The notes beneath the pieces are model-generated. The model was given only the letters and a program-made list of their open reading frames with translations. It searched no databases and had not been told where the DNA came from. A DNA stretch of 64,000 nt, taken from positions 124,001-188,000 of the forward strand of contig JAJGRE010000003.1 in NCBI GenBank assembly GCA_021083345.1. The letters run 5' to 3'. The position numbers and the translations under genes are program-made. The stretch comes from Calditrichales bacterium MX18-03 (GTDB lineage Bacteria; Bacillota; Clostridia; Lutisporales; Lutisporaceae). This document shows positions 11,503 to 30,516 of the stretch, in pieces; position 1 is the first letter of the stretch, and each line of letters opens with the position of its first letter.

Positions 11503-12213
11503 CTATTTCCCATGATACAGGAGACGACCGCAGTTCTCACAGCGTATAGCCGCTTTTTCTGCCTTGACAGTCTCATAATCCATAGCCGGCAGCTCCACCA
11601 TGCAGCCGGAGCATTTCCTTCCGTCAAGAAGGACAACCGCATCGGAATGTTGTCTTCTTATTTTTCTATATAATTCCAGCGCATCTGCTTCCACTGTCAC
11701 CAGCAGCCGTTCTATTTCCTGCTGCAATTCAGCCTGAGCGGCTTCCAACTGACAGCATTCCCTTTCAACGCTTTCCTTGGCGCTGCCGTATTTTTTTTTG
11801 ATAAAGTTCAGTTTCTTGATTGTCTCCATCCGATCCTTCTCTATAGTTTCTGCATCTTCAAGGAGCTTTATCAATTCATTTTCCATGTTGGTCCTTTGAT
11901 GATTCAGATGATCGATATGTTTTTCAATATTTTCCAATTTTTTGACCGTATCGGTATCCCTGCTGAACTTAATCGCTTCACTGGTTTGTTTGTTCATCTG
12001 AATCAGCATGATTTCATTATTGCCATCTTCCTGCTGCTTCTGATTCTGCTTTAACTCTGCGTCATCCTGCTCCAGCTTGTTCTTTAGTCTTTGATATTCA
12101 TCCTTTAACCGCTGCTGCGTCTCTTTACCGCCCTTCAGACCATTGAGTCTGGCCACAATCTGATCCATCCTGCTTTCAAGAACCTGAAGCTTGTATAGCG
12201 CATGAAGGTTCAT
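11503..12213 (-). CDS. C4-type zinc-ribbon, coiled-coil protein (CT398-like)
   Basis: 236 residues. Residues about 15-170 are a long charged coiled coil (many K/E/Q heptads). The C-terminus has a zinc ribbon with Cys-x2-Cys (CSGC) and Cys-x2-Cys (CENC) about 23 residues apart, followed by GRLLY. Such proteins recur beside nif3 and trmK across Firmicutes but have no settled function; nucleic-acid or flagellar-chaperone roles have been proposed for relatives. The start has GGGAG eight bases before it. It is the third gene of the run trmK-nif3-this gene. Confidence 0.85.
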   Translation of the reverse strand: MNLHALYKLQVLESRMDQIVARLNGLKGGKETQQRLKDEYQRLKNKLEQDDAELKQNQKQQEDGNNEIMLIQMNKQTSEAIKFSRDTDTVKKLENIEKHIDHLNHQRTNMENELIKLLEDAETIEKDRMETIKKLNFIKKKYGSAKESVERECCQLEAAQAELQQEIERLLVTVEADALELYRKIRRQHSDAVVLLDGRKCSGCMVELPAMDYETVKAEKAAIRCENCGRLLYHGK

Positions 12214-12249
12214 TCCATCAACTCCCTTTCAAAATTCATGTTAAATGAC

Positions 12250-12278
12250 AAAAAGGGAATAGACGCCAAGTCTATCCC
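12250..12278 (-). terminator. Hairpin terminator at the end of the nif3 gene
   Basis: GGGATAGAC and GTCTATTCCC pair around TTGGC, followed by TTTTT on the minus strand. It starts at the stop codon and may reduce read-through into the zinc-ribbon gene. Confidence 0.75.
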
Positions 12279-13399
12279 TATAATACCGAAACCATATCTA
12301 CATTTGCCCTTGATTCAATCACTTCCACCTGGTATTTCAGGTCGTCGAAGCGCCCTTTCAAAAATGCCGCAATAGACTTCATCATGATCTTTTCCGTGCC
12401 GTAATGGCCGGCATCGATAACGCAGAGCCCCATTTCCACTGCATCCAGCAATTCGTGGTATTGGACATCCCCTGTGATAAGCAGGTCTGCACCGGCAAAC
12501 CGGGCATCCGAGGCGAACTTGTTTCCCGCCCCGTTCAGAAGTGCAACCTTCTTGATCAATTTGTTCGGATCACCTGCAAAGCGGATATGCGGTATATCCA
12601 GCAGTTTCTTCACGCTTTCCGCATAAAGAGACAGGGATATCCCGTTTTCCAACTCAGCCAGCCTCCCCAAGCCAAAAACCTTTCCTTCGTTGAAGGTCTG
12701 ATAGATATCATAAGCCACCTCTTCATAAGGGTGAGCCTTCAGCATCTCTTTAACCGCTTTATTCAGCAGCTGCTCGGGAACAATGGTTTCTACCCGGTAT
12801 TCTTCAGTATTTTCCAAGTGTCCTATCTTTCCGGTAAAAGGCTGTGCCCCTTCCTGTGGCTCAAAGGTACCCATTCCGGGTGTACGGAAGGAGCAGTTGC
12901 TGTATTTTCCAATAAAGCCTGCTCCTGCCCTGCATAACGCCTCTATGACCGCTGTTTCATGTCCTGTGGGTACAAAAACCACCAGCTTGTAAAGCTTTTC
13001 CTTTTGCAGCGGCTGTATGGTCTGCCAGCTGGCAAAGCCCAGCTGTCTTGCCATTAAATCATTGAGTCCCCCTGACGCCATATCATAATTGGTATGGAGA
13101 CAATACAGCGAAATATTGTTCCTGATCAGTTTCATGATTTTCCTGCCGATAGGGGTATCGGTATTAATGCGTTTGATGCCGCTAAAAATCATGGGATGAT
13201 GACATACGATCATATCCACCTTTTCCTCAACAGCTTCATCCAATACCCATTCCGGAACATCCAGACACACCATCAGCTTCCTGACCTGCTGCTTTCCGTC
13301 TCCCACCAGCAAGCCCACATTGTCCCAATTCTCTGCGAGTTTTTTGGGAGCCAGTTCCTCCAATATTCCGGCTACATTCTGACATTTTAAAGTACCCAC
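12278..13399 (-). CDS. Nif3-like dinuclear metal-centre protein (GTP cyclohydrolase I type 2 family)
   Basis: 373 residues, the long form with an inserted CutA/PII-like domain at about residues 125-225. Metal ligands show as CHHPMIFSG near residue 66, HTNYD near 102, and GDVQYHELLDA plus DAGHYGTE near the C-terminus. GTG start at 13399 with GGAGG seven bases upstream, overlapping the trmK 3' end. The family is widespread and hexameric, but its substrate is unresolved despite its name. Placement next to trmK is conserved in Firmicutes. Confidence 0.9.
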   Translation of the reverse strand: MGTLKCQNVAGILEELAPKKLAENWDNVGLLVGDGKQQVRKLMVCLDVPEWVLDEAVEEKVDMIVCHHPMIFSGIKRINTDTPIGRKIMKLIRNNISLYCLHTNYDMASGGLNDLMARQLGFASWQTIQPLQKEKLYKLVVFVPTGHETAVIEALCRAGAGFIGKYSNCSFRTPGMGTFEPQEGAQPFTGKIGHLENTEEYRVETIVPEQLLNKAVKEMLKAHPYEEVAYDIYQTFNEGKVFGLGRLAELENGISLSLYAESVKKLLDIPHIRFAGDPNKLIKKVALLNGAGNKFASDARFAGADLLITGDVQYHELLDAVEMGLCVIDAGHYGTEKIMMKSIAAFLKGRFDDLKYQVEVIESRANVDMVSVL

Positions 13400-14088
13400 T
13401 GCCTAACCTCCCTATAGTAAGCCAACATCTCAAGGCAAACCGCCCGCCTGTCCTGCGCGCTGTCAGAATTGCTGATATCCAGGCTGTCCAGTATTTTCTC
13501 CAGTTCCTTGATCCGCCTGTCAATAAGCTCCAGAGCCAGGGGATGCTTCTTCTCTATGATCCTGGTGCCGATGAAGAGCTTTGATGCTGCATCATGCTTT
13601 TCGCTTCCCGGTTTTGCCCAAATGATTTCATAAATCTTCTCAGCTTCCTTCACCAATTCTTCATCTATTATCTCAAAACCATTTGACAAGAGCCAGGCAC
13701 GGAGCAGCTCAGAATCCCGCATGGGCTGCAGAATCAGCAGCCGGGCTGAGCCGGCCTTTTCCCTCTCTTTTTCCAGGATCTCCTTGATCAGGATACCGCC
13801 CATACCGGCTATGACGATGACTTCCGCCTCGCCGGGCATCAGCACCGCCAGTCCATCCCCATGACGCACCTCCACTCTATCCGCGGCCCTGTGGTTAGCG
13901 AGACGCTTTCTGGAGATTTCAACGGGGCCCATATTCACATCTGTTGCAACCGCTTTCTTTATCAAGCCGCTTTTTACCAGATAAATCGGCAGGTATGCAT
14001 GGTCGGAACCTATATCTGCCATGGTCTCATAACCTCTAATACTATCGGCTATCCGCCTCAGCCTTGGTGTTAACTCCAATCCTCTCAT
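13387..14088 (-). CDS. trmK: tRNA (adenine22-N1)-methyltransferase
   Basis: 233 residues. An N-terminal Rossmann methyltransferase opens with LTPRLRRIADSI and the SAM loop MADIGSDHAYLPI, then VIAGMGGILIKEIL in place of the catalytic motif, and LILQPMRDSELLR. A helical coiled C-terminus follows. This is the TrmK pattern, methylating A22 in tRNA with SAM in the cytoplasm. It is followed with 13 bases of overlap by nif3, a standard pairing. Confidence 0.92.
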   Translation of the reverse strand: MRGLELTPRLRRIADSIRGYETMADIGSDHAYLPIYLVKSGLIKKAVATDVNMGPVEISRKRLANHRAADRVEVRHGDGLAVLMPGEAEVIVIAGMGGILIKEILEKEREKAGSARLLILQPMRDSELLRAWLLSNGFEIIDEELVKEAEKIYEIIWAKPGSEKHDAASKLFIGTRIIEKKHPLALELIDRRIKELEKILDSLDISNSDSAQDRRAVCLEMLAYYREVRQWVL

Positions 14089-14226
14089 CCTTGTCCTTCG
14101 CGTAATTTAGAATATTAATCATTATTATACTATACTTTCCATAGTTTTTTATCAGTTTTTGAGAAAAATAATGTTAAAGCTATTATCCCATCCTGGCCTA
14201 TTTTTATTAATCGAAAGGAGTAGCGT

Positions 14227-14391
14227 ATGAGTAAAAAAATGCACATCAAACCCGAGGTCATTCAGAAATTCAATTGGGGCGGCACTACTAAACAATGGGA
14301 AGAGGAAGCGGGCAAGCTGTCTAACCAGTTGGAAACCATAGAAACAGTTTCCCGTATACTGGATAAGCAGGACGAATGTGATAAGAAGTAA
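14227..14391 (+). CDS. Small hypothetical protein, 54 residues
   Basis: ATG at 14227 is preceded by GAAAGGAG, and a terminator-like hairpin follows the TAA. The peptide starts MSKKMHIKPEVIQKFNWGG and continues as one amphipathic charged helix (WEEEAGKLSNQLETIE), ending DECDKK. The good ribosome site, clean frame and own downstream hairpin argue that it is real. I do not recognise the family; its size and helix pattern recall small spore or stress proteins, but this is only an impression. Confidence 0.6.
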   Translation: MSKKMHIKPEVIQKFNWGGTTKQWEEEAGKLSNQLETIETVSRILDKQDECDKK

Positions 14392-14407
14392 GGTGATAGT
14401 AAGTGAA

Positions 14408-14438
14408 ATAAAAAAACCTGATACTTGCGTATCAGGTT
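14408..14438. terminator. Bidirectional terminator between the small ORF and the tRNA pair
   Basis: AACCTGATAC and GTATCAGGTT make a perfect 10-bp stem with a TTGC loop. The T run is strong on the minus strand (end of the tRNA unit) and short on the plus strand. Confidence 0.8.
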
Positions 14439-14450
14439 TACCCTTCTGAA

Positions 14451-21404: not shown

Positions 21405-21432
21405 TTGAAAAACACATTCATTAGGCTATAAT
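21405..21432 (+). promoter_or_regulatory. SigmaA promoter of the HD/NadD-like operon
   Basis: TTGAAA (21405-21410), 16-base spacer, TATAAT (21427-21432), about 47 bases before the start codon of the 1643-residue protein. Confidence 0.75.
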
Positions 21433-21478
21433 GAGGTAAAGACATAATGTGTTGATTGAGTGTGTCAGGAGGTGCGGT

Positions 21479-24400
21479 ATGATACAGCAGAATGTAACAG
21501 GAATGATCAAAGCAATTGCAATTGCGCTTTCAGATATGGAATGGTCTGAACATGTTGAGAAAAAGCAGCAAGTGGTTGATAACCATTTGAACCAGACCTA
21601 TTTCCGAGACCATATTGCTGACATGGCTCTGGAGCAGGATTACAGCTGCACGTCGGTATTTCAGCTTTGTGAGCGGATGATTCGTGATCTCAGCGGCAAG
21701 ATGAAGCAGCAGGATCTCCTGAATTCCTTCTATCAGGAAGCTTTAAGCAGGGCTTTCCCTCAAACCCCAGCTTCTGATTCCCATGCCGGTGAGTTGACAG
21801 ATACCCGCAGGCTTTACCTGGAAGTGCTTCGCGTCTTTTCCAGGCTGCAGCAAGTCTCGGAGGACGGTACCTGGCAAAGCAGATACCCGCTGGTCTTTCT
21901 GACCAGGGATGAAGAAAAAGCGCTGGAGAACCCCATAGAATACAGACGGTTTGTAAAAGCCTTCCAGCATGACTATATATACGAAATGATGAAGCTGAAC
22001 CAGGAACTGTTGGGCTTCAATACCTTGGATCATATTTGCGGCGTCCACCATCTGGCCATGCACATCGGCAGGCAGCTGAAGCAAGCCGGTCTGCCCGTGG
22101 ATCTGGGACGGGTTTCGGGAGCTGCTGCTGGCCATGACATAGGCAAATACGGCTGCAAGCCCAATGAATACAGGAAAGTGCCCTATCTGCACTACTATTA
22201 TACCGATCAATGGTTCAAGCGGCACGATATCCCCTACATCGGCCATATCGCCCTGAACCATTCCACCTGGGACCTGGAGCTGGAAAACCTGCCTCTGGAG
22301 TCCCTCATCCTTATCTACAGCGATTTCCGTGTAAAAAACCGCATCGATAACGCAGGTAAGGAAAAAATGCATATTTTTGACCTCCGTGCATCCTTCAAGG
22401 TTATTTTAGATAAGCTGGACAATGTGGACCAGGAGAAGGAACGCCGCTACCAGCGGGTTTACGCCAAGCTGAAGGACTTTGAAGCTTATATTGTAAGCCT
22501 TGGTATCACCGTATCACCCGATGACGTGAAGCCGGACGCTTTGTCAATACCCGTCAGGCATACGCCTTTTGCATTGCTTCAAGGCAGTGAGATCATCCAA
22601 AGGATGAAATATATGGCCATCAACCATAATATCAACCTCATGCACCGGCTGCGTGACGAATACTCGCTTACCTCCATATTGGAACTGGCAAGAAGCGAAA
22701 ACGACTGGAAGAAACTGCGGGAATACATTCATGTTTTTGAAGAGTATTCCACCTACCTGACGCAAAAGCAGAAGCTGATCATGATCCGGTTCCTTTTCGA
22801 GCAGCTGGTACATTCCGAGGATGATATCAGGCGCCAATGCGCAGAATTGATCGGCCTGCTGATTGCAACCTTTGACGAGGATTACCGCAAGGAGGTTCCC
22901 GAAAACGTCTTTATGGCACCGCCTCCCGTAACCAGCAGCGACTTGCTCGACAAGTACATGCATATGTTTGTATTTCCGGACCATAAAATGGTTCCGCTGC
23001 ACCGCAATTTTATCGGATACAGCATCAGCAGCATGATTGCAGCTCTCTTTAACCGCTGCCGTGCTAAACAGATTGAAGAATTCAAGCAGGTCATTATCAA
23101 GTACTACCTAAATTCCGGTCCAAGAGCTCCTGAAACTGATCTGTATCTACTGGAGGCTACCCGCCATATCCCCTTGACAGGAAGCCTGACTGCCTGCAAT
23201 GCCGTTTATGACTTTATCCTGCAGCTGCTGTCCGATGCGCGGAGCTATATCCGCATATCCGCCCTTGAGATGGCATACAGCATCATGTTGAAGCTCAGAC
23301 AGAGCGATAGTTCGTTGTCCTGCAGGGAAGCTTACGACCGTTTTGTTTCCGGTTTGAAGTCCCATTTAGAAAAAAGCACGGAACCCTCAGACTTACCGGC
23401 TGAAAACTATCTCATGCTGAGGTTGTCCGGCATGTCCGGCGTCAGCGATAATATCAGCCGGGCTTTGTCAAAAGCATGCAGCAGGGATGACCGCAAAATA
23501 TCCGAAACCTTCCTCAGCAACTTGAAATCTGCTACCGGCTGGGTCGTCAAACGGACACAGGTTGACTACCTGCTGAGCTATGCTCTGGAAGAGCCTGGTG
23601 CCAACGGCTTTTACACCGCCATGCACTTCTGCAATCTGCTTAAGGTCAGCGCGGTAGAAAATGTAAGAAACCGTGCCGGTGAAGCCCTTATCCGAATCAT
23701 CCCCCACCTGTCCCCCGAGCAGCGCAACGACGTGGCGGTTGAATTGTTGAGAGCCCTTGAGATCAGCGGCTATCAATATGCCGAATACATCCCGCTTTAC
23801 TTCGGCAAGCTGATTCTTTTCCTGCAGCCTGTCGAACTGGACGAGATTATCGATGATTTTATCATCAAGCTGAAGCATTCAAGTCCCCAGCTTAACTCAC
23901 TGATTCTCCGAACAGTGGGTATTGCTGTTGTGCATTATGTGGGGCTTAAGGACCGCCTTCACGAAGATCATTCCTTATATATAAATCGTATGACAAAAAT
24001 GCTGGGAATACTACTGAATGGCGTAGCCCATTTCGACTTGCAGGTGAAACAGGCTGCCTTCAGTGCTCTGGGCAGGGAAATTTTCGGCTCAGCAGCTTTG
24101 GACCTGGAGGAAAAACAGCATATATTCCGCCTGGTCGCCAAGAAGATACTGAATCTGATGACCGACAGCAAGGATGTAGAACTGCTGTTTTTGACAAACT
24201 CGGCAGGACTGAACCATATTTACCGTTTCATAGCCGATTATACCTTCTTCAGAAATGACATACAAATCCGGATCCCGGAAAAGGTTGCCTTCTTCCCTGG
24301 TGCTTTTGACCCCTTTTCCCTGAGCCATAAGGAAATTTCCAAAGCGATCCGCAACCTTGGTTTTGAGGTCTACCTGTCGGTAGACGAGTTTTCCTGGTCC

Positions 24401-26410
24401 AAGAGAACACTGCCAAACCTTCTGCGAAAGAATATCATTAATATGTCGGCAGCCGACGAATTGGACATCTATCTTTATCCTGAGAATTATCCGGTCAATA
24501 TTGCCAACCCTAAGGACCTGGAGTGCCTGAGGAGCAGTTTCCCCCATTCCGAGGTCTTTATTGTGGCGGGCAGCGATGTGATCGTCAATGCGTCAGCCTA
24601 TAAGCAGCAAAAAACGCCCCATTCCATACTGTCCTTCTCCCACATCCTTTTTGAACGCAGGATCCTGACGGGACAGGGCAGCTTGCTTGACGCTGCAGTG
24701 GATGATTCCATCCGCAAAATAGAAGGAGAGGTGATCCGGCTGACTTTGCCGTCACAGCTTGAAGATATCAGCTCGACACAGATCCGCGATTATATTGATG
24801 AAAACAGGGACATAACCATGATGGTTGATCCGCTGGTGCAGCAGTATATCTACGAAAACGGCTTCTACCAGCGGGAGCCCCAGTATAAATCGCTGATCAA
24901 GACCATGTCCATCGATATTGAAGTGATTGAAGAAATCAACCGCAGCTATATGGAGGAGATTGCAGAGGCGATGCAAATCAGCCTTGAAGCAGCCCTGGAC
25001 AAATTCAACGTTTTTTTTGACAAACCGTCTTACCGGCTTCTGCTTATACGGAATGCCAACCAGAAAGGCCGCATCATCGGCTTCACTGCTTTCCACCGCA
25101 TCCACTTCAGCTTGCTGTACCAGGAATTCAAGAATAGTGCGGTAACGGAGTATATCCGGAACCATTCCGCGGGAAAGATCGTCCACATCGACGGTGTTTT
25201 TGTCTGTACAGGCACAGTGATGGACAATTTTGAGCAGATACTGCTGACTGAGACCTTATCCTATTGCTTGACAAAAGACTATGATTATGCCGTATTCAAT
25301 AACGTGCTAAATGCCGGTACATCCTATTCGCTGCTTGAGGCACTTGAGCTCAAAGGTTTTACAGCCTTGCCGCTGGAGGGCGAGCCGGGGAACATCATGA
25401 CGGTCAATATGAGCAAACCTTGTACGCTGAACTTGGATATCGAGACCATGATCAAGGAACCTTACAGGAGCAATACCCGAATTGTGAAGGCTATAGCCAA
25501 GACCCGAAAAAGGCTTTTAAGGGTCATGACAGGGCTGTACCCCGGCTATTTGACCCTGCCCTTTGACCGCAATATCATGTACGAGGTTTTGGTTAAGAAA
25601 ATCTGCATGGTGAACCAAGTCCCTGCCGAAACGCTGGTACCTCGCGTGCTGGGACCTTCCATGTGCGTTCCCTATGGTACGGTCTTGGGCAAGAGCATTG
25701 TTCCCAATACTGTTACCAAAGCACTGCATACGGAAAAAATGTTTGAGCCGGATGCCAAAGCCTTCAGCATCGGACCCTTCCCCTACTACCTGGATCTGGA
25801 AAGCCAGATTCGAATGCTGCGTTCCTTTGACAGGCCGGTTATCCTGGTGGATGACATACTGGACAAAGGCCACCGGATCAGAGCACTGGACCCCCTGTTC
25901 AAAAAGGAGAATATTAAAATTGAAAAAATCATTGTGGGCATCCTTTCAGGCAGCGGCAAGGAACTGATGGAGATTCAGGGTCACGAGGTAGACAGTGCGT
26001 ATTTCATTCCAAAACTGAGAGATTGGTTCAATGAAAACGCATTTTACCCCTTCATCGGCGGGGATGCCTTATGGCGCGGTGAATACCCCAGCCGGAACTT
26101 GCTGCCGTCCCTCAATCTGATACTGCCCTATGCCTCTCCGGCTTTTCTGAAGGGCGTGGAAAAAAAATCCATCTTCAAGCTGTCTGAGACAGCCATTGAA
26201 AATGCCATCGAAATCCTTTCAATTGTAGAAGAAGAGTTCCAGGAGATCAACGAAAGAAGCATGACGCTGGCTTCCATGGGTCAGGTATTCACGACACCCC
26301 GCTGTCCTGACCACGGCAAGCACATGGAATATGACCTGAGCCGTTGCCCTTCCTTCTATCTGAAGAATGACCTGGAGCTTTTGAACAGGCTTGAAAATGT
26401 TTTGCGTTAA
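21479..26410 (+). CDS. 1643-residue multidomain protein: HD, helical repeat, NadD-like, GNAT-like and PRTase-like regions
   Basis: The start is ATG 21479, six bases after AGGAGG. An HD domain spans about 180-330: DHICGVHH near H185, GHDIGK with H219-D220, and YSDFRV near D282. Residues about 350-930 are mainly helical and HEAT-like. A nicotinate-mononucleotide-adenylyltransferase-like domain covers about 935-1135: GAFDPFSLSH (H950, with the first His of the HxGH signature replaced by Ser), VAGSDVI, and SSTQIRDYI at about 1098. A region resembling a GNAT lies at about 1140-1320. A phosphoribosyltransferase-like region at about 1360-1540 carries VILVDDILDKGHR (D1458-D1459). It heads a three-gene operon. 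The combination suggests nucleotide or cofactor synthesis or turnover; this is inference, and the reaction is unknown. Confidence 0.85.
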   Translation: MIQQNVTGMIKAIAIALSDMEWSEHVEKKQQVVDNHLNQTYFRDHIADMALEQDYSCTSVFQLCERMIRDLSGKMKQQDLLNSFYQEALSRAFPQTPASDSHAGELTDTRRLYLEVLRVFSRLQQVSEDGTWQSRYPLVFLTRDEEKALENPIEYRRFVKAFQHDYIYEMMKLNQELLGFNTLDHICGVHHLAMHIGRQLKQAGLPVDLGRVSGAAAGHDIGKYGCKPNEYRKVPYLHYYYTDQWFKRHDIPYIGHIALNHSTWDLELENLPLESLILIYSDFRVKNRIDNAGKEKMHIFDLRASFKVILDKLDNVDQEKERRYQRVYAKLKDFEAYIVSLGITVSPDDVKPDALSIPVRHTPFALLQGSEIIQRMKYMAINHNINLMHRLRDEYSLTSILELARSENDWKKLREYIHVFEEYSTYLTQKQKLIMIRFLFEQLVHSEDDIRRQCAELIGLLIATFDEDYRKEVPENVFMAPPPVTSSDLLDKYMHMFVFPDHKMVPLHRNFIGYSISSMIAALFNRCRAKQIEEFKQVIIKYYLNSGPRAPETDLYLLEATRHIPLTGSLTACNAVYDFILQLLSDARSYIRISALEMAYSIMLKLRQSDSSLSCREAYDRFVSGLKSHLEKSTEPSDLPAENYLMLRLSGMSGVSDNISRALSKACSRDDRKISETFLSNLKSATGWVVKRTQVDYLLSYALEEPGANGFYTAMHFCNLLKVSAVENVRNRAGEALIRIIPHLSPEQRNDVAVELLRALEISGYQYAEYIPLYFGKLILFLQPVELDEIIDDFIIKLKHSSPQLNSLILRTVGIAVVHYVGLKDRLHEDHSLYINRMTKMLGILLNGVAHFDLQVKQAAFSALGREIFGSAALDLEEKQHIFRLVAKKILNLMTDSKDVELLFLTNSAGLNHIYRFIADYTFFRNDIQIRIPEKVAFFPGAFDPFSLSHKEISKAIRNLGFEVYLSVDEFSWSKRTLPNLLRKNIINMSAADELDIYLYPENYPVNIANPKDLECLRSSFPHSEVFIVAGSDVIVNASAYKQQKTPHSILSFSHILFERRILTGQGSLLDAAVDDSIRKIEGEVIRLTLPSQLEDISSTQIRDYIDENRDITMMVDPLVQQYIYENGFYQREPQYKSLIKTMSIDIEVIEEINRSYMEEIAEAMQISLEAALDKFNVFFDKPSYRLLLIRNANQKGRIIGFTAFHRIHFSLLYQEFKNSAVTEYIRNHSAGKIVHIDGVFVCTGTVMDNFEQILLTETLSYCLTKDYDYAVFNNVLNAGTSYSLLEALELKGFTALPLEGEPGNIMTVNMSKPCTLNLDIETMIKEPYRSNTRIVKAIAKTRKRLLRVMTGLYPGYLTLPFDRNIMYEVLVKKICMVNQVPAETLVPRVLGPSMCVPYGTVLGKSIVPNTVTKALHTEKMFEPDAKAFSIGPFPYYLDLESQIRMLRSFDRPVILVDDILDKGHRIRALDPLFKKENIKIEKIIVGILSGSGKELMEIQGHEVDSAYFIPKLRDWFNENAFYPFIGGDALWRGEYPSRNLLPSLNLILPYASPAFLKGVEKKSIFKLSETAIENAIEILSIVEEEFQEINERSMTLASMGQVFTTPRCPDHGKHMEYDLSRCPSFYLKNDLELLNRLENVLR

Positions 26411-26421
26411 GGAGGCATTTT

Positions 26422-27672
26422 ATGAACTATTACCGATATGACCACCGTATCCTATTTTCCGAAGCAGTGTATGAGGATCTGCAGCACGTAACAGAGTCGG
26501 AGGCATCCCTATCGGAAGAAAGGTTTTTTTGGCTTCACAGCCGTGACCCCAAGGCATCACGGCGCAGCTTCTGTCTGTCCGATGCCTCTCTTGCCGGCAT
26601 TCCCGACGAGGGATTGGCGCTGCTCCGTAAGATGGATGGGCCCTATCTTTTTCCCCAATGGATCATGGAACGGATAGAACAAAAAAAGGTAACGGCGGTC
26701 AATACCGCTTATCCAGACTGGCTGGATGCCCTGGACTTCCATGTGCCCGCGCGCTGCCGGATCCATGTCGTTGGCTTGGGAGATGTAGGCGGCATCATGC
26801 TGACGGGACTTCGGCTCCTGGGTGACGCTTCGGTGTCCGCAATCGGCATCTACGATATCGATCAAAACAAGGTGCTCCGTTGGTGCTATGAAGCCAACCA
26901 GATCCTTTCTCCGGTGGAATTGCCGGCAGAAAGCCGCTATCCGGAGGTTGTGGCCATAGACGATTCCAGCCTCTTTGACTGTGACCTCTTTGTTTTCTGT
27001 GTCACGGCCGGGGTTCCGGCGCTGGACGACCAGACTCGGGATGTGCGGTTGGCCCAGTTCGAAAGCAACGCACGAATCATCGGCGGCTATGCCAGGAAAG
27101 CGCGTGAAAGACGCTTCAAAGGCATCTTTGCCGTGGTTTCCGATCCTGTGGATCTTCTCTGCAAGGCTGCCTTCGCCGCTGCCAATACCGACGAAAATGG
27201 TCAGTGGGATATGCAGGGCCTTGCTGCAGAGCAGATCCGCGGCTACGGTCTCGGCGTCATGCACGCCCGTGCCGCCTTCTTTGCCGGCCAATCTCCGGAT
27301 ACGCGGCAGTACCTCCATGAAGGCCGTGCGTTTGGTCCCCATGGTGAGGGTCTGGTGATCGCAGACAGTGTCTCGAATTATAATGAAGCTGCCTCGCTGC
27401 TGCTGACGGAAAAGACCAAACATGCCAATATGGAGGTCCGCGCAGCCGGCTTCAAGCCGTACATCGCACCTGCCATTTCCTCAGCTTGCCTGTCACTTCT
27501 GGCTACCATACGCGGCCAGTGGCATTACAGTGCCACTTACATGGGCGGCGTCTTTATGGGGGCCAGAAACAGGCTGCTGCCGGCAGGTGTGGAACTGGAG
27601 CGGCTGGATATCCCGCCTGCGCTGTTTTCGAGACTGGAAAATACATACGAAAGTCTGGCGAAAATGATATGA
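26422..27672 (+). CDS. Lactate/malate-dehydrogenase-fold oxidoreductase
   Basis: 416 residues, longer than LDH because of a roughly 105-residue N-terminal extension. The NAD loop VVGLGDVGGIML (G118-G123) is followed by YDIDQNK, whose acidic residue favours NAD over NADP. VTAGVPALDDQTRDVRL, ending in an ESNARI helix, corresponds to the LDH active-site loop, and VVSDPVDLL to the NPVD strand. GPHGEG places the catalytic His at 307. These features suggest an active 2-hydroxyacid-type dehydrogenase of unknown substrate. AAGGAGG precedes ATG 26422, 11 bases after the large gene; its 3' end overlaps the next gene by ATGA. Confidence 0.8.
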   Translation: MNYYRYDHRILFSEAVYEDLQHVTESEASLSEERFFWLHSRDPKASRRSFCLSDASLAGIPDEGLALLRKMDGPYLFPQWIMERIEQKKVTAVNTAYPDWLDALDFHVPARCRIHVVGLGDVGGIMLTGLRLLGDASVSAIGIYDIDQNKVLRWCYEANQILSPVELPAESRYPEVVAIDDSSLFDCDLFVFCVTAGVPALDDQTRDVRLAQFESNARIIGGYARKARERRFKGIFAVVSDPVDLLCKAAFAAANTDENGQWDMQGLAAEQIRGYGLGVMHARAAFFAGQSPDTRQYLHEGRAFGPHGEGLVIADSVSNYNEAASLLLTEKTKHANMEVRAAGFKPYIAPAISSACLSLLATIRGQWHYSATYMGGVFMGARNRLLPAGVELERLDIPPALFSRLENTYESLAKMI

Positions 27673-28718
27673 GCGCACTCCATGTTTTTGTACCGCCCGA
27701 TGCTTCCTCTTTACTCCGCAGGATGGTTGAAAAGACAGTTGGCCAAACCCCCTTCCTTCGGATTCAAAATGACATTGCACTCCCGGATCTTCGGGATAAA
27801 AAGCTGTTGATAGCGGTAGAGATAAGCAAAGCAGGCTTTAGTATGCCGGCTGCCCAGCTCATTACCAGGCTTTACGATACCGGAGCTGACTCTCTTTCAG
27901 GGGCTTCCGCTGTTTTGCTGCTTCACAGCCCCAATGAATTCTATACCAAGAGTATGGCTTCCAACCTTGTTTTCCTGTTGAACCAACTAGGCTGCCGCTT
28001 TCCCGGCCATCCGGTCATAGATGCTACCGGCAGCCTGATGAACTTCTCCACCTGGCAGAAAACCATGGATATGTCCTTGGAGGAGATATGCCTTGAAAAC
28101 TGTTCGGCTCTTGGGAGGCGTTTCCTGAATGAATATCCGAATCAGATAAAAAAGCCCCGCATTCTTGCACTGCATTCCAGTTCATCCAGAACTTCAAACA
28201 CGCTGATGCTCTGGAATATGGTCAAGAAAGGGCTGGAAGGCTGTGAAATCCAGGAGTTCCATGTTGAAAACGGAAAGGTCCTGGATTGTATCGGATGCAG
28301 TTTCAGGACCTGCATCCATTTCAGCAAGCAGCACAGCTGCTTTTATGGCGGCGTCATGGTTGAAGAAATCATGCCGGCTATCGAAAATTCCGATGCGGTC
28401 GTCTGGATCTGTCCCAACTACAATGATGCGGTCTCTGCCAACCTGACAGCAGTCATGAATCGGCTGACTGCTCTTTACAGGCGGATACCCTTTTACGCCA
28501 AATCCATGTATGCCGTCATCGTATCCGGAAATTCCGGAAGTGATACATTGGCAAAGCAGCTGATCGGAGCACTGTGTGTCAATAAGGGCTTTTCACTGCC
28601 GCCTCGTTTCTGCATAACGGCAACGGCCAACGATCCGGGTGCCATTATGCATATTCCTGGCGTCGAGGCTTCCGCATCGGATTTTGCCCGGCTTCTACTA
28701 ACTGAAACAAGAAAATAG
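27669..28718 (+). CDS. NAD(P)H-dependent FMN reductase/iron-sulfur flavoprotein-like protein
   Basis: 349 residues from ATG 27669, whose ATGA overlap with the upstream stop points to coupled translation. The C-terminal 200 residues form a flavodoxin-like domain. The flavin phosphate loop is HSSSSRTSNT, and CIGCSFRTC (C207, C210, C215) plus a further Cys near 224 resemble the cluster or metal motif of iron-sulfur flavoproteins, though the spacing is unusual. The N-terminal ~150 residues match no family I know. Expected role: electron transfer from a nicotinamide cofactor to a product of the operon. Confidence 0.75.
   Translation: MSALHVFVPPDASSLLRRMVEKTVGQTPFLRIQNDIALPDLRDKKLLIAVEISKAGFSMPAAQLITRLYDTGADSLSGASAVLLLHSPNEFYTKSMASNLVFLLNQLGCRFPGHPVIDATGSLMNFSTWQKTMDMSLEEICLENCSALGRRFLNEYPNQIKKPRILALHSSSSRTSNTLMLWNMVKKGLEGCEIQEFHVENGKVLDCIGCSFRTCIHFSKQHSCFYGGVMVEEIMPAIENSDAVVWICPNYNDAVSANLTAVMNRLTALYRRIPFYAKSMYAVIVSGNSGSDTLAKQLIGALCVNKGFSLPPRFCITATANDPGAIMHIPGVEASASDFARLLLTETRK

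Positions 28719-29145: not shown

Positions 29146-30516
<1,371 letters not shown>

Follow-up and report, generated by a model that had tools for sequence, protein, structure and literature searches.

A conserved three-gene bacterial locus built around a 1643-residue HD, HEAT and NadD-like fusion protein, with a possible role in dinucleotide metabolism

Which process could call for a NadD-like adenylyltransferase domain and an HD domain in one long polypeptide, encoded directly beside two redox proteins? The question is raised by three adjacent genes, here called A, B and C, in a window of 64,000 nucleotides (the whole stretch of DNA that was analysed; Table 1). A preliminary description of the locus had proposed a three-gene operon, in which a fusion of HD, NadD-like, GNAT-like and phosphoribosyltransferase (PRTase)-like regions is followed by a dehydrogenase of the LDH/MDH type and a flavoprotein with a cysteine motif, and had suggested that the three act on a nucleotide or cofactor. 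An enzyme of 1640 residues that stays intact over many families of Clostridia-type bacteria, together with the same redox pair, points to an undescribed nucleotide/redox pathway. Here we describe the domains, distribution and conserved motifs of the trio and weigh the functions that they may serve.

Layout and inheritance of the trio

Genes A and B are separated by 11 bp and genes B and C overlap by 4 bp. Upstream of gene A lies a near-consensus sigma-70-type promoter-like site, the best-scoring in a promoter scan of the region, and a comparable TTGAAA...TATAAT box is found 5′ of gene A in several diverged relatives. We favour the ATG at 21479 as the start of gene A over a longer GTG start at 21449 because of the AGGAGG ribosome-binding site that precedes it. 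The scan of the region reported no terminator-like site at the A–B or B–C junction, and no riboswitch or other RNA element reached the gathering threshold. The proposed operon was borne out; that the three genes share one transcript we infer from spacing and gene order.

Table 1 Features of the trio in the window, and kinase-like genes beside second copies of gene A
Feature	Position	Strand	Evidence or remark
Sigma-70-type promoter-like site	21405..21432	+	TTGAAA-16-TATAAT, 11/12 matches
Ribosome-binding site of gene A	21467..21472	+	AGGAGG, read directly
Gene A, fusion protein	21479..26410	+	ATG ORF, 1643 aa
Gene A HD domain, aa 150-345	21926..22513	+	Pfam HD in 11/18 members; six ligands invariant
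Gene A HEAT-like helical solenoid, aa ~366-925	22574..24253	+	AlphaFold (AF2), Foldseek, Pfam HEAT
Gene A NadD-like adenylyltransferase, aa 934-1132	24278..24874	+	GxFDPF(S/T)xxH, GxDV, SSxxIR
Gene A GNAT fold, aa ~1145-1324	24911..25450	+	AlphaFold (AF2), Foldseek
Gene A PRTase fold and C-terminal helices, aa ~1333-1643	25475..26407	+	Foldseek, Pfam Pribosyltran
Gene B, LDH/MDH-superfamily dehydrogenase	26422..27672	+	416 aa
Gene C, flavodoxin-fold (FMN_red) protein	27669..28718	+	349 aa
APH/fructosamine-kinase-like gene, locus L038	14905-15843		Adjoins second copy of gene A
APH/fructosamine-kinase-like gene, locus L045	7017-7946		Adjoins second copy of gene A
APH/fructosamine-kinase-like gene, locus L036	10713-11666		Adjoins second copy of gene A
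APH/fructosamine-kinase-like gene, locus L050	10259-11182		Adjoins second copy of gene A

Across 391 genomes of the class, gene A was found in 32, gene B in 31 and gene C in 30, and no genome had B or C without A; in the two genomes with a missing partner (G012 and G013), a contig ends within the unit. Within these genomes the association is strong (Fisher p about 1e-43, uncorrected for relatedness) and spans at least nine families. The genes also occur in other families of the phylum, where gene A occurs in six further genomes, gene B in all four of those checked, and complete trios in several. The expectation that the three genes would co-occur in related genomes therefore held. Prevalence is patchy, with gene A in ~8% of the class; named carriers of the trio are Anaerosolibacter carboniphilus and Acetoanaerobium noterae.

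The A–B–C order recurs amid unrelated neighbours and the genes are nearly always adjacent. In two genomes of family f22, ~5.5 kb separates A from B–C, and in genome G711 gene B is on a different contig. Pairwise distances between the proteins are correlated (r = 0.82 for A–B, 0.94 for A–C and 0.84 for B–C). A plasmid origin was rejected, as the sole full-length match in the plasmid set is a chromosome-sized Acetoanaerobium noterae record of 2.6 Mb, and so was a phage or defence origin, as searches gave no phage match, nothing in PADLOC and nothing significant among the PHROGs.

Genes of glutamate and ammonium metabolism lie beside several of these loci. In the window, a gene for an NADP-type glutamate dehydrogenase (29170-30516) is directly 3′ of the trio, and sister genomes (loci L040, L042 and L047) carry a glutamate dehydrogenase of this or another type at the equivalent place. 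The insert between A and B–C in the f22 genomes (L046 and L084) holds Amt and glutamate-synthase-like genes. At L097, genes of the NADPH-dependent glutamate synthase small subunit/NfnAB type (12203-14441) lie just upstream of the trio on the same strand, preceded by a likely pyruvate:ferredoxin oxidoreductase gene.

Domains of the fusion protein

Gene A encodes, in order, an HD domain, a HEAT solenoid, a NadD-like adenylyltransferase domain, a GNAT fold and a PRTase fold. The entire chain is kept at ~35-60% identity across ~40 homologues, which, with the co-occurrence of the trio, argues that the fusion did not arise by chance. Single-protein Pfam scans gave sub-threshold matches only, yet the same matches were repeated across homologues: among 18 members, CTP_transf_like matched 15, HEAT 13, HD 11 and Pribosyltran 11. 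The multi-region fusion of the preliminary description was confirmed by sequence for the HD and NadD regions and by AlphaFold and Foldseek for the HEAT, GNAT and PRTase regions, with the protein modelled as two separate pieces (aa 1-930 and aa 1135-1643).

All 24 NadD domains of the members tested matched the NadD model TIGR00482 (best E 2.1e-16), with scores of 41 bits for the window domain and ~60 bits for the best member against a cut-off of 112.45 bits, and a profile search of the region against solved PDB NadD structures gave 3e-8; the NadD-like fold assignment thus withstood both searches. The motifs PGxFDPF...H, GxDV and SSxxIR show no variation across the 37 trio-type copies of gene A. 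Also conserved in these copies are the second His of HxGH and ISSTxIR, the form that this motif takes in adenylyltransferases. At the first His of HxGH, most of the copies listed have Ser or Thr, as in CoaD, and for this reason the acceptor may not be NaMN.

Could gene A simply be the housekeeping NadD/YqeK, given that its chain unites a NadD with an HD domain? The host genome has a canonical nadD with an adjacent yqeK on a separate contig, 23 of 24 trio genomes encode a canonical NadD that exceeds the curated cut-off, and gene A itself scores far below that cut-off. These observations refute such a replacement, which we regard as extremely improbable; genome G075 is a possible exception. It is the only one of the 24 without a NadD above the cut-off, its best match being the fusion itself, and this could reflect assembly loss. 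The separate canonical nadD implies that the product of gene A, or the use made of it, differs from routine NaAD supply.

In the HD domain, the six ligands H185, H219-D220, H238, H261 and D282 do not vary among the 41 gene A proteins compared. This H...HD...H...H...D pattern has been described as a mark of dinuclear sites such as that of YqeK, and in HD phosphatases an Arg lies some three positions ahead of the first His (PMC8177086). Gene A has an invariant Thr182 where the Arg of HD phosphohydrolases is expected. HD oxygenases have the same six ligands as dinuclear HD hydrolases, and hydrolysis of a substrate at this site is for that reason rated only likely. The assignment of the HD domain is sequence-based, and the region does not appear in the Foldseek matches listed for aa 1-930. 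Membership of the YqeK family was rejected: the YqeK model TIGR00488 did not match the fusion at 1e-3 in the host genome and found one of 23 gene A HD domains (E 0.059), and a single-sequence hhalign comparison was weak (E 0.053). Of the YqeK-type HD domain proposed initially, the six-ligand pattern stands and the family assignment does not.

These features bear on a role in NAD quality control, in which gene A would repair or remove faulty NAD-type dinucleotides while B and C handle damaged reduced forms. There is a precedent in the proofreading reported for a NadD–YqeK fusion (PMC9426524), and a host that keeps its own canonical nadD and yqeK could employ gene A as a helper. The same host pair, however, already covers this role; the patchy distribution is ill-suited to a general repair need, and the HD domain has no YqeK-family match. 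We consider this reading distinctly unlikely.

The solenoid makes up about one third of the chain. Foldseek searches with the model of aa 1-930 (29 sequences; pLDDT 87.4, pTM 0.85) returned the HEAT/importin-type solenoids of SF3B1, CAND1 and importins. HEAT repeats often bind proteins, and the NadD-type site might nucleotidylate B, C or some other macromolecule that the solenoid holds, with the HD site reversing the modification. Protein or RNA modification of this kind would fit the strict co-inheritance of gene A with its two partners and the pairing of an adder and a remover site in one chain. Against it, those NadD/CoaD superfamily members that we know of act on small molecules, and neither B nor C was found to have an acceptor site, so we give it a low probability.

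The model of aa 1135-1643 (31 sequences; pLDDT 87.9, pTM 0.89) matched GCN5/PCAF over the GNAT region (E about 1e-5, prob 1.0) and the xanthine PRTase 1y0b over the PRTase region (E 2.8e-4, prob 1.0). Pfam Pribosyltran was found, below threshold, in 21 of 32 C-terminal segments. Both folds named in the preliminary description were therefore recovered. The aligned GNAT region holds no canonical Q/R-x-x-G-x-G/A acetyl-CoA loop, and the PRTase motif ILVDDxLxKGxR (aa 1455-1466) departs from the canonical PRPP motif, which has an acidic pair and T/S-G-x-T/S. Most members have VDDxLxKGxR, and in some the acidic pair is altered (VDN, VTD or SDE). With no recognizable loop in the one and a PRPP motif of unusual form, in some members degenerate, in the other, both folds look catalytically doubtful and may have a binding or structural role.

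Redox partners and second copies

Gene B exceeds the cut-off of Pfam Ldh_1_N (33.9 bits against 27), a model matched by 13 of 13 gene B members, and PDB LDH profiles match as well. It has an N-terminal extension of ~110 aa, which a few members lack. Invariant in 35 sequences are G120-D121-V122-G123, D241, R283 and H307, of which R283 and H307, read by eye, are suggested to correspond to the Arg and His that LDH uses in catalysis; both lie outside the comparison with MDH, which aligned part of the NAD-binding region only. Scores are far below the LDH equivalog cut-offs, and on its profile matches gene B is a predicted remote dehydrogenase of the LDH/MDH type. The host genome, rated 100% complete, contains no other match to the LDH/MDH N-domain model, nor was a canonical LDH or MDH detected there; within this genome an LDH-type domain is detectable in the trio alone.

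Gene C exceeds the Pfam FMN_red cut-off by a wide margin (77.4 bits against 24, E 1.2e-21). Its four cysteines, C207-x2-C210-x4-C215-x8-C224, are invariant in 33 sequences, and PDB sequence searches found no solved relative. Both partners thus agree with what had been read from the sequence at the outset.

A bolder possibility is that the three proteins produce and employ a redox cofactor of dinucleotide type that is distinct from NAD(P). Gene A would then assemble and recycle a NAD-like molecule from a different base, gene B would be its dedicated dehydrogenase and gene C its flavin/Fe-S electron partner. If so, the bacteria that carry the trio would possess a separate redox currency; we hold this to be a long shot.

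In a signalling role, gene A would make and destroy a signal molecule, a dinucleotide resembling Ap4A or NAD, which the GNAT and PRTase folds would sense and which would tune B and C or the metabolism of amino acids. Opposed sites for synthesis and hydrolysis on one HEAT-scaffolded chain are in line with this, as is the degeneracy of the GNAT and PRTase folds, which fits ligand sensing. The dinuclear HD enzyme YqeK cleaves Ap4A (PMC8177086), and genes for glutamate dehydrogenase, glutamate synthase or Amt lie beside the trio in several lineages. B and C, however, are enzymes with intact cofactor motifs, neither receptors nor regulators; no known receptor of a dinucleotide signal was found nearby, and the neighbours vary. 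On balance we think this unlikely.

Second copies of gene A offer a natural contrast as to which activity the partners need. Four paralogues lack adjacent B and C: one in the host genome (G000:C9:107838-112721), one each in G004 and G009, and one in MAG21 (locus L036), where the trio is at another place. NadD motifs are clearly broken in three of the four; in the host-genome copy ISSTQIR has become ASPAQIR, with most motifs kept. The copies retain their HD ligands and the greater part of the PRTase motif, and in a tree of gene A the second-copy state needs two separate origins. An APH/fructosamine-kinase-like gene adjoins each of the four (Table 1). The NadD site, intact in the 37 trio copies and damaged in the four copies without B and C, is thereby tied to the partners, which suggests, from four proteins in two lineages, that it is needed when B and C are present.

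Proposed function and relation to known systems

From the intact NadD and dinuclear-type HD motifs we infer a role in nucleotide or cofactor metabolism, as originally proposed. Our tentative preference is for a scaffolded enzyme that makes and cleaves a dinucleotide, served by two dedicated redox partners. The NadD-type site would transfer AMP from ATP to a phosphorylated partner, giving a dinucleotide of the NaAD/NAD type or an analogue, and the dinuclear HD site would hydrolyse this or another nucleotide, for turnover or clean-up of the NadD-site product. The PRTase and GNAT folds may bind or channel substrate; alternatively, where the PRPP motif is retained, they may synthesize the precursor monophosphate. 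As a frame, the HEAT solenoid would hold the parts of gene A together and probably dock B and C in a physical complex, to which the product could be handed over. Gene B, as an NAD(H)-type dehydrogenase, and gene C, as an electron carrier of the FMN/Fe-S type, would both use or act on that product.

Several lines of evidence favour this dinucleotide-making and -cleaving function. The genes co-occur, keep their order in unrelated surroundings and have correlated distances. The NadD motifs track B and C, TIGR00482 matches every domain tested and the HD motif is of the dinuclear type. Finally, biochemical work on mycoplasma has established a NadD–HD fusion that hydrolyses dinucleotides, its HD part cleaving NaAD and incorrect products of NadD (PMC9426524). 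Counted against it are Thr182, the Ser or Thr in HxGH, the altered acidic pair of the PRTase motif and the missing acetyl-CoA loop.

None of the curated families of Pfam, NCBIfam, PHROGs or PADLOC spans the whole gene A chain, and we found no description of the fusion or the trio in a literature search that reached few subscription journals or preprints. The component folds are known; the fusion architecture and the three-gene system appear to be new as far as these sources show.

Each gene nevertheless has recognizable relatives. Gene B shares with L-lactate/malate dehydrogenases (PF00056) a Rossmann domain with GxGxxG; it differs in its N-terminal extension, in having no match to the C-terminal LDH model and in carrying Asp241 in place of the Asn of the SNPVD motif. 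Gene C has the flavodoxin-type FMN domain and clustered cysteines of FMN_red/iron-sulphur flavoproteins (PF03358), with an additional N-terminal half and a distinct x2-x4-x8 cysteine spacing. Gene A has in common with NadD (TIGR00482) its fold and the motifs GxFDP...H, GxD and ISSTxIR, whereas it scores below the family cut-off, mostly lacks the first HxGH His and coexists with a separate host NadD. The NCBIfam model NF005519 matches its NadD part and has 361 positions against the 1643 aa of the protein.

The closest parallel is the mycoplasma NadD–YqeK fusion (JCVISYN3A_0380; see also NF005519), which likewise joins an adenylyltransferase and an HD phosphohydrolase in one chain, with NadD before HD. 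Unlike gene A, it has no HEAT, GNAT or PRTase regions, and we know of no B or C partners for it. It also serves as the NadD of its organism, which gene A does not, and the HD domain of gene A has no match to the YqeK model. Gene A thus appears to follow the logic of adenylyl-transfer and nucleotide-hydrolysis sites in one chain while standing outside both curated families.
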